From Synergistaceae bacterium (GTDB lineage Bacteria > Synergistota > Synergistia > Synergistales > Aminobacteriaceae), in assembly GCA_017450125.1 (NCBI GenBank), contig JAFSWZ010000010.1, positions 62,001 to 126,000 of the forward strand: a DNA stretch of 64,000 bases. Direction: 5' to 3'. The notes under the pieces were generated by a model. It ran no database searches, had not been told where the DNA came from, and saw only the letters and a list, made by a program, of their open reading frames with translations. The position numbers and the translations under genes were made by a program. Shown here in pieces: positions 52,190-53,906 of the stretch; position 1 is the stretch's first letter; every line of letters begins with the position of its first letter.

Positions 52190-52295
52190 GGATATTCCTC
52201 CTTGTGAAGCAGAAACTTTGTGTACGACGTAATATTAGCACAGAGCTATATACGCAGAATAGCTGATGACAGTTGCGTTTTTTTTTATACTTATT

Positions 52296-52412
52296 ATGAA
52301 GGTGATTGCGGATGCTGTGGCTGAGGATTGCGGCAGGGAGTATGTGCGCACTATCGCGGCTCACAGAAAATCGGAAAGCATCATCAACAAAATTTTTGAC
52401 GAAAGGAATTAA
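52296..52412 (+). CDS. Possible small ORF upstream of peptide cassette
   Basis: A 38-codon ORF whose stop is directly followed by the GTG of the first precursor. An in-frame ATG at 52266 would add 10 hydrophobic codons crossing a T9 run. The protein is mixed-charge and helical, resembling nothing I know. No clear ribosome site. It may be a small gene, a leader for coupling, or chance. Confidence 0.3.
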   Translation: MKVIADAVAEDCGREYVRTIAAHRKSESIINKIFDERN

Positions 52413-52568
52413 GTGATAACTATGCTGAGTTACGAAGAGTTCTCGAATTACGGAAGTATGTCTGCCGACTGCAACCCTGACCCTTGCGGCCCGGATTATG
52501 ACTCTGACTGTATGCCGGACTGCTCGCCCACTGAGGACGGCTTTGACTGTTGCCCGTTCGAAGAGTAA
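52413..52568 (+). CDS. Putative Cys-rich RiPP precursor peptide A
   Basis: 51 codons. GTG at 52413 follows AAAGGA by about five bases; ATG at 52422 (48 residues, beginning Met-Leu-Ser-Tyr-Glu) is an alternative that matches precursor B's beginning. Cysteines at 20, 25, 33, 37, 46 and 47 (numbered from the GTG). Repeated Cys-X-Pro-Asp units: Cys20-Asn-Pro-Asp, Cys25-Gly-Pro-Asp, Cys33-Met-Pro-Asp; Cys37-Ser-Pro-Thr is related. The N-terminal half, Glu/Ser/Tyr-rich without cysteine, is a plausible leader. Highly acidic. Function inferred from the radical SAM gene that follows. Confidence 0.7.
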   Translation: MITMLSYEEFSNYGSMSADCNPDPCGPDYDSDCMPDCSPTEDGFDCCPFEE

Positions 52569-52580
52569 GGAGGAATAATC

Positions 52581-52688
52581 GTGTTGAGCCACGAAATTCT
52601 CACGAACGATGACGAATACACCCGCATAGAATGGTGCGAGCCTGACGACTGCAACCCCGATTACTTTTGCAGGCCTGACAGGTGGTAG
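52581..52688 (+). CDS. Putative Cys-rich RiPP precursor peptide B
   Basis: 35 codons; GTG start with AAGGAGG about seven bases upstream, 12 bases after peptide A. It begins Met-Leu-Ser-His-Glu. Cysteines at 19, 24 and 30, each in Cys-X-Pro-Asp: Cys-Glu-Pro-Asp, Cys-Asn-Pro-Asp, Cys-Arg-Pro-Asp. Shares Asp-Cys-Asn-Pro-Asp with peptide A. Ends Arg-Trp; the stop TAG overlaps the radical SAM GTG by one base. The strong ribosome site and tight coupling support real translation. Confidence 0.75.
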   Translation: MLSHEILTNDDEYTRIEWCEPDDCNPDYFCRPDRW

Positions 52689-53884
52689 TGTACTATCTGG
52701 AGCACAACGTCTACCTTGTTGACGGAAAAGTAAACGCGGCCTTCTATGACTTCAATCATGGAAGGCTTGTTCATGTCAGTACGGCGGGCAAGAATCTACT
52801 GCGCAGGGTTCTCGGCCAAGATGCAGAACTCACCAGCGAAGAACGCGCTTATCTCAACAGCCTAACGTCCCTGGGACTGCTCACCGACAAATTCACTGAG
52901 CCGCACGACATCAGCGAACTTTGCGGGAAGCCCGTTATAGATTTCGTGTGGATAGAGGTTACGACCTTCTGCAACCTGAAGTGCCTGCACTGCTACAACG
53001 AAGCAGAAAGCTCATGCGGAAAAGTCATGCCTTACGAGGACTTCTGCCACGTCATCGACGAGCTTGTTGCTTTCGGGGTCAGGAAGGTACAGCTCATCGG
53101 CGGAGAACCCCTCACTCTCGGCGACAATCTTACGCGCTATCTTGACTACTTGGCCGGGAAGTTCGACTACGTGGAGATTTTCACGAACGGCACGCTGATG
53201 ACCGACAGCCTCATCACTTACCTCAAGGCACACGGAATCAGAGTTGCCCTCTCCCTGTACTCGTACAGCCCTGACGAACACGACAAAGTTACACGTCTGC
53301 CCGGCTCATGGGCAAGGACGAACGAAACCATACGGAGATTGCGCGAGAACGGCATACCTTACGCAGTCAAGAATGTCCTGATGAAGGGTGTTGCTCTCGG
53401 CGACAAGAACACTGACCTTTACACGCTGAACCCCAAGAAAGATGTTGTGCGCCTCACAGGCCGTGCTTCCGCCTCTCTGCTTACGATGGAGCTGGCGCGC
53501 AAACGATTAATCACGAAGAGGAGCTTCCGCCGCCGCCTCAGCAAAGGCTTCGTGCAAAGATGCTTAAGCGGGCATAACTGCTTCTCGCGGAGATTATACT
53601 TTGCCGCAGATTTGACCGTCTACCCCTGCGTCATGGAACGCCGAATCTCTCACGGAAACCTGCGCGGCTCACACCTTCCCGACATAATCAATGAGGACAT
53701 ACTTTCACTGAACAAGGACAGAATCCACGAGTGCAGTGAATGTGAGTTCAGGTACTGCTGCCACGACTGCCGCCCAGACTCCGGCGGAAGAAACCTTCAT
53801 GCAAAGGCTTGGTACTGTACTTATCTTCCCCTGCTGGGACAATGGCAGGACGAGGAGAATTTCTTGAGAGAGCAGCTCCCCTGA
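52688..53884 (+). CDS. Radical SAM/SPASM peptide maturase
   Basis: About 398 residues from GTG at 52688 (TAGTG overlap); a GTG two codons earlier is also possible. Residues about 1-75 look like a small winged-helix, PqqD-type peptide-binding domain. Radical SAM cluster motif Cys-Asn-Leu-Lys-Cys-Leu-His-Cys at 95-102. The C-terminal SPASM region has Cys-Leu-Ser-Gly-His-Asn-Cys, Tyr-Pro-Cys, and Cys-Ser-Glu-Cys-Glu-Phe-Arg-Tyr-Cys-Cys-His-Asp-Cys, matching auxiliary Fe-S clusters. Such enzymes make thioether or carbon links in RiPPs (sactipeptides, ranthipeptides). Target is inferred to be peptides A and B. No transporter or protease is adjacent. Confidence 0.88.
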   Translation: MYYLEHNVYLVDGKVNAAFYDFNHGRLVHVSTAGKNLLRRVLGQDAELTSEERAYLNSLTSLGLLTDKFTEPHDISELCGKPVIDFVWIEVTTFCNLKCLHCYNEAESSCGKVMPYEDFCHVIDELVAFGVRKVQLIGGEPLTLGDNLTRYLDYLAGKFDYVEIFTNGTLMTDSLITYLKAHGIRVALSLYSYSPDEHDKVTRLPGSWARTNETIRRLRENGIPYAVKNVLMKGVALGDKNTDLYTLNPKKDVVRLTGRASASLLTMELARKRLITKRSFRRRLSKGFVQRCLSGHNCFSRRLYFAADLTVYPCVMERRISHGNLRGSHLPDIINEDILSLNKDRIHECSECEFRYCCHDCRPDSGGRNLHAKAWYCTYLPLLGQWQDEENFLREQLP

Positions 53885-53906
53885 AGAAACCTTCGGGGGA
53901 GTTTTT
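53876..53906 (+). terminator. Terminator of the peptide cassette
   Basis: Eleven-pair stem (53876-53886 with 53891-53901, one G-U) with AAAC loop and TTTTTG after. It begins inside the radical SAM 3' end, before the stop codon. Confidence 0.9.

Follow-up and report, generated by a model that had tools for sequence, protein, structure and literature searches.

We describe a compact three-gene unit in a gut Synergistaceae bacterium, in which two short genes for cysteine-rich peptides (pepA and pepB) are followed by a radical SAM enzyme and a single terminator. We consider it very probable that this cassette belongs to a family of RiPP precursor-maturase pairs. It lies in a stretch of 64,000 nucleotides, which we call the window, between leuB and leuD and on the strand opposite to both. 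Our argument draws on the structure of the unit, the co-occurrence of peptides and enzyme, the peptides found upstream of distant homologues, control loci, shared motifs, selection on the peptides and predicted folds. The family has its own leader motif and its own Cys-X-Pro repeat code (CxP), both outside the NCBIfam and Pfam models searched, and is spread thinly over the Synergistota, the Bacillota and one 'Proteobacteria' MAG. Its peptides, almost certainly modified by the enzyme, appear to be of a kind not yet described, and the family is new to the NCBIfam and Pfam libraries searched. A literature search found no paper that links a CxP or CxPD motif to radical SAM enzymes; subscription papers lay mostly outside its scope and an earlier description is possible.

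The gene unit and its borders

The features of the unit are collected in the table. A sequence-only reading of this DNA had described two short ORFs coupled to the enzyme through ribosome sites, a 12-base gap and a TAGTG overlap, closed by a strong terminator, and all of these are present. The terminator has a predicted stability of -24.8 kcal/mol (z = -3.85), and none of 200 shuffles was equally stable. A pattern for the gap and the pepB start, drawn from the window and a relative, matches once in the window and never in 100 shuffles. An Rfam search gave no match.

Features of the cassette, with positions in the window
Feature	Position	Strand	Evidence
pepA, precursor 1, 48 aa, MLSYEEFSNYGSMSADCNPDPCGPDYDSDCMPDCSPTEDGFDCCPFEE	52422..52568	+	ORF; orthologues in genomes G031, G010, G007
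pepA leader motif E-E-F-S, 8 residues ahead of first CxP	52434..52445	+	family motif E-x-[LMF]-[ST]
pepA core: CNPD, CGPD, CMPD, CSPT, CCPF (Cys-X-Pro repeats)	52470..52565	+	motif count
pepA-pepB gap, 12 bases, GGAGGA-containing ribosome-binding sequence GGAGGAATAATC	52569..52580	+	G031 has same layout
pepB, precursor 2, 35 aa, GTG start, MLSHEILTNDDEYTRIEWCEPDDCNPDYFCRPDRW	52581..52688	+	ORF; peptide-profile match E 7.6e-12
Radical SAM / SPASM-type maturase, 398 aa, GTG start	52688..53884	+	Pfam Radical_SAM 78.4 bits; AlphaFold2 pLDDT 86.8; Foldseek
N-terminal RRE (PqqD-like) domain by predicted fold, 81 residues	52691..52933	+	AlphaFold2 pLDDT 91.9 folded alone; fold matches
Radical SAM motif CNLKCLHC (C97, C101, C104)	52970..52993	+	three Cys invariant in 12 homologues
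SPASM-type auxiliary cluster region C300-X15-C316 ... C351-X2-C354-X5-C360-X2-C363 ... C379	53579..53818	+	invariant Cys
Intrinsic terminator, 13-pair stem, T-rich tail	53874..53903	+	hairpin and folding energy vs shuffles

Two of the starts call for comment. The pepA ORF spans 52413-52568 and has an in-frame alternative GTG at 52413; we favour the ATG at 52422 (MLSYEEFS...) because relatives keep that start. The enzyme start is placed six bases earlier, at 52682, in a mechanical ORF list, but 52688 is likely since homologues begin at that residue (for example MYKLGKNIYL in Lutispora). With this start the pepB stop codon (TAG, 52686-52688) overlaps the GTG of the enzyme.

A further 48-aa ORF upstream, at 52266-52412, proved to be not a third precursor but the end of a longer resident gene, which is truncated in the window and whole in G031 (locus L031, 1539-1997); the ORF has no Pfam match. 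Relatives of that gene stand at the same leuD-leuB site in L109 and L126.

The precursor peptides

The sequence-only reading called the peptides Cys-rich, which they are, and the motif can now be drawn more sharply as Cys-X-Pro, often followed by Asp. Proline stands at +2 of 100 of the 113 core cysteines in 22 precursors. Asp directly follows 58 of these 100 motifs, and D, E or N stands at +1 or +3 in 79. Among the first 17 precursors there are 75 CxP, against a maximum of 23 in 2000 shuffles. These 17 peptides are rich in D, C and P and strongly acidic, with net charges of -6 to -18. Asp immediately precedes 37 of 92 cysteines. We dropped CxPD as the core motif, as the units CDPF, CDPS, CNPV and CRPV of L101 leave only C-x-P constant.

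Ahead of the core, in a leader of about 16-18 residues, all 22 precursors carry the motif E-x-[LMF]-[ST] (as in MLSYEEFS, MLELECLT, LELLTK and IEKLTR). Shuffled leaders give it in a mean of 2.1 and at most 7 of the 22, a comparison that is descriptive because the motif was read off the same 22 peptides on which it was scored. The distance from this motif to the first core Cys is 8-11 residues in 21 of the 22. In pepB the leader motif is EILT and the core is CEPD, CNPD, CRPD. Four of the 736 window ORFs of 20-110 aa have at least three CxP, and only pepA and pepB have the leader motif as well; the two are the sole matches of their kind in their own genome.

The peptides are also under purifying selection. 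Comparison of pepA with its G031 orthologue gives a dN/dS of about 0.2, with changes mostly at third codon positions, and precursor codon comparisons give about 0.07-0.35 where computable. These values speak for purifying selection and not for its strength, given the saturation of dS in some comparisons and the small size of the peptides. No NCBIfam or Pfam family model matches either peptide, in agreement with the sequence-only reading, which could place them with confidence in no RiPP family.

The maturase

Pfam identifies the enzyme as a radical SAM protein (PF04055, 78.4 bits). The same reading had also given it a SPASM domain and a PqqD-like N-terminal domain, and here the picture is mixed, since Pfam matches neither. 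On the first point, neither Pfam SPASM nor TIGR04085 is among the matches listed for the maturase, but the cysteine pattern is of the SPASM type. Ten cysteines are invariant in 12 homologues, three in the CxxxCxxC radical SAM site and seven SPASM-like. The seven come in nearly canonical SPASM order, with CX2C in place of CX3C as the last spacing and without the usual Gly.

On the second point, the predicted fold identifies the N-terminal domain as an RRE. Its seven best fold matches are all RRE-containing proteins (TM up to 0.69, E 0.06-0.8), among them TbiB1-leader (5v1u, TM 0.68), FusB1 (6jx3), PbtF (8t19) and CteB. The modest E-values, 0.06 or worse, are perhaps to be expected because the domain is so small. 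For the full-length model (pLDDT 86.8) the best Foldseek matches are SkfB, SuiB, CteB and TigE.

Curated scores place the maturase outside the SCIFF, PapB, CcpM, AlbA and StsB families. Its best NCBIfam scores lie in the tens of bits, with a maximum of 78, against cut-offs of 175-850, so it falls in no named equivalog. It scores 67.3 against 850 for AlbA, 51.5 against 625 for StsB and 48.8 against 500 for TIGR04068 (CcpM/Clo7bot). The models NF047865 (PapB family) and TIGR03974 (SCIFF) are outside its best 25 families, and the homologues L035 and L041 score 58.5-71.4 against the NF047865 cut-off of 340 bits (58.5 for Lutispora).

Conserved pairing of peptides and enzyme

A profile built from the peptides matches exactly 7 of 188 Synergistota genomes, its own included, and these are the same 7 that hold a close enzyme or a fragment of one. 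Peptides from five of the seven genomes went into the profile, so the informative part of this result is the 181 genomes without a match together with the matches in G007 and G017, which were not in it. Close enzymes (67-72% overall identity) are found in G031, G010, G008 and G042, which belong to the same genus as the window genome. In G007 the peptides and the beginning of the enzyme lie at a contig end; G017 keeps a decayed copy of the cassette at the same leu site, beside leuD.

More distant enzymes (36-45% identity; 37-44% overall) occur in Lutispora thermophila, in Oscillospiraceae, 'Clostridiales' and Ruminococcus MAGs and in a 'Proteobacteria' MAG. CxP peptides stand upstream of all of these (L035-L040 and L041); in the 'Proteobacteria' MAG two of them stand ahead of a second radical SAM gene. 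Overall, CxP peptides lie upstream of every close homologue with readable upstream DNA, in at least three phyla. Once the motif had been fixed, four more homologues came to light (G609, G613, G625 and G740; L098-L101), and each is directly preceded by CxP peptides, in G740 by two. By comparison, no ORF of 20-110 aa with three CxP is present in any of 21 control radical SAM loci taken from the same search. Two more distant homologues, in G140 (46%) and G003 (30%), have no visible CxP peptide and both lie at contig ends. The sequence-only reading had tied its precursor-maturase proposal to conservation of the peptides beside homologous enzymes. That conservation was found in seven of seven genomes and four of four later homologues, and with the RRE fold and the radical SAM core it supports the proposal.

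The cassette is rare. Counting the centre genome, it is in 1 of 394 genomes of an order sample, 2 of 398 of a phylum sample and 8 of 30 in one genus, and viral, plasmid and phage collections gave only distant radical SAM proteins below 35% identity.

Some variants are worth recording. In L041 (283-2373) a pair of CxP peptides, of which one carries a GG-type leader, is followed by a PapB/DynA-like radical SAM enzyme and then by the family enzyme; we read it as a two-maturase version of the CxP system. In G740 a 202-aa protein without a Pfam match (L102, 8114-8722) lies directly upstream of the two precursors and is a possible extra component. In G003 two radical SAM genes are adjacent (L079, 5346-7303), one of them the 30% homologue.

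Genomic setting

The leuD-leuB junction is a variable spot, because the two genes are adjacent in some cassette-free relatives (about 17-44 bp apart) and separated by different genes in others. The junctions compared were L105, L115 and L127 against L104, L109, L111, L116, L117, L120-L122, L131 and L132. Inserts in this genus include an NADPH-dependent-reductase-like protein, ankyrin-repeat-like proteins and other single genes. The cassette occupies the leu site in its own genome (G000), G031 and G010, and in decayed form in G017. In G008, G042 and G007 it follows what we take to be an oxidoreductase-like gene and, where readable, stands ahead of a presumed adenosylhomocysteinase-like gene. 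Its neighbours differ by lineage (hflX, leu genes, ahcY and others, the names being partly our own reading). None is conserved across the cassette loci, hence they give no clue to export or function. The variable insertion site and the scattered distribution over phyla suggest a history of gain and loss, probably by horizontal transfer.

The window's own genome carries two other loci of related appearance. One (L097, 1119-2910; contig C16) combines a Nif11-leader peptide that has a Cys core with a radical SAM enzyme, and a C39-peptidase-like protein is encoded close by; we read it as RiPP-like. The other (L096, 1576-3188; contig C34) pairs a radical SAM/SPASM enzyme that does have a Pfam PqqD match with a 39-aa peptide ending SCHKCEFEN, and we read it as a separate small cassette.

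What reaction does the maturase carry out?

By analogy with known maturases, we lean towards thioether cross-linking of the cysteines. The N-terminal RRE would bind the leader, as homology suggests, and the 5'-deoxyadenosyl radical of the radical SAM domain would take a hydrogen atom from the peptide core. The Cys thiolate of each CxP would then join a carbon of a nearby residue with a loss of 2 Da per link (a thioether, again by homology), while the auxiliary iron-sulfur cluster would accept the second electron. Candidate acceptors for the sulfur are the Pro or the X inside CxP, the following Asp, or a residue further away. Since Pro is constant and Asp variable, Asp may be at most one of several acceptors, or Pro may set a turn. 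The product would be a small, very acidic polycyclic thioether peptide. Cassette loci have no transporter, protease or immunity gene in common, so leader removal, and export if there is any, must use general functions. From the acidity one may guess that the peptide binds metal or acts as a signal in the cell. The CxP repeat makes the reaction directly testable, since cross-linking should make the peptide 2 Da lighter for every CxP, and the cultured host Lutispora thermophila DSM 19022 (NZ_FQZS01000010.1) means the product can be sought in a real strain.

There is a real, if less than even, chance that the cassette encodes a PapB-like ranthipeptide system, with Cys joined to the beta carbon of Asp (or the gamma carbon of Glu), mostly within Cys-X-Pro-Asp. 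PapB accepts Cys-Xn-Asp with n = 0-6 (PMC9413430), the fold of our maturase resembles CteB, and the counts of Asp after CxP, and of D, E or N at +1 or +3, are as such a reaction would have them. However, the Pro at +2 varies much less than the Asp at +3, which is missing from conserved units such as CWPY, CFPY, CCPF and CRPV, and the PapB model fits both the window enzyme and its Lutispora homologue poorly, as the scores above show.

We think it unlikely that the family is a sactipeptide system, in which, as with SkfB, the Cys sulfur would bond to the alpha carbon of residues in other parts of the peptide. Among solved structures SkfB matches best, both in full-length fold and in sequence, and the AlbA, StsB and SkfB models score within the CxP enzyme family, but far under their cut-offs. 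Typical sactipeptides have a block of Cys plus separate acceptor residues; CxP units are instead local and spread through the core.

It is also doubtful that no cross-link is made and that the enzyme performs an epimerisation, an oxidation of Pro or Asp, or a backbone excision, leaving CxP plus Asp as a metal-binding acidic peptide. The acidity and the D/C/P-rich composition would suit this, as would the lack of a nearby transporter, and related folds include the epimerase EpeE. Against it, the RRE and the seven additional invariant Cys are what one expects of a bond-forming maturase, and SkfB, CteB, SuiB and TigE rank above EpeE in the fold search.

A more speculative form of our cross-linking proposal, which we regard as a long shot, takes Cys-X-Pro itself as the reacting unit. 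The Cys sulfur would be joined to a carbon of the Pro ring, or the Pro turn would be used to bond the residue between, up to nine times per peptide, and the acidic polycyclic product would stay in the cell or be exported by a general route and may bind metal. We know of no precedent for a Cys-to-Pro-ring cross-link within CxP.

Finally, we set aside as highly improbable the idea of an enzyme that acts on something else, with pepA and pepB as chance ORFs or 5' leader ORFs. Their small size and the lack of a family model for them would fit it, but the pairing across phyla, the purifying selection, the shared leader and core motifs, the blind test (4/4) and the control (0/21) all stand against it.

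Comparison with known systems

The skf operon includes genes for export and processing, and its peptide SkfA is unlike those with CxP repeats. Its maturase SkfB (sporulation killing factor sactisynthase, PDB 6efn) has the same RRE, radical SAM and SPASM-type architecture as ours and is its best fold match (E 2.3e-14), yet the two are only 19% identical. Classical exported sactipeptide clusters differ in general from the CxP loci, which have no such shared set of transporter, protease and immunity genes.

The ranthipeptide system CteB/CteA (SCIFF, PDB 5why and 5wgg) likewise sets a Cys-rich precursor beside an RRE-radical SAM-SPASM enzyme, and CteB is a fold match both of the whole window enzyme and of its RRE. 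It differs in that TIGR03974 is not among the best 25 models for our enzyme and in that the CxP precursors match no SCIFF (six Cys in forty-five) model. CcpM/Clo7bot (TIGR04068) also combines a Cys-rich peptide with a radical SAM maturase, with weak similarity to ours over the N-terminal domain and core; here too the CxP peptides match no precursor model and the maturase stays far below the cut-off.

In PapA/PapB (NF047865) one short precursor carries several Cys-X(n)-Asp units for a single maturase, much as in our family (PMC9413430). The PapA motif is CX3D, whereas in the CxP family Cys-X-Pro is constant and Asp optional. The tolerance of PapB for different spacings (PMC9413430) is the strongest precedent for a Cys-Asp link in the CxP family. 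A radical SAM network (PMC9062424) contains an uncharacterised Cluster 59, in which a recombinase and a radical SAM enzyme accompany a peptide with repeated Asp-Cys. It shares with the CxP cassette the minimal pair, the Cys repeat and the lack of a transporter. The two, which may yet prove to be the same, are set apart, by description only, by the Asp-Cys repeat and recombinase of Cluster 59 and by the constant Pro at +2 and lack of a recombinase in our cassette. As far as sequence can tell, then, the CxP system belongs to the broad RRE-radical SAM kind of RiPP.
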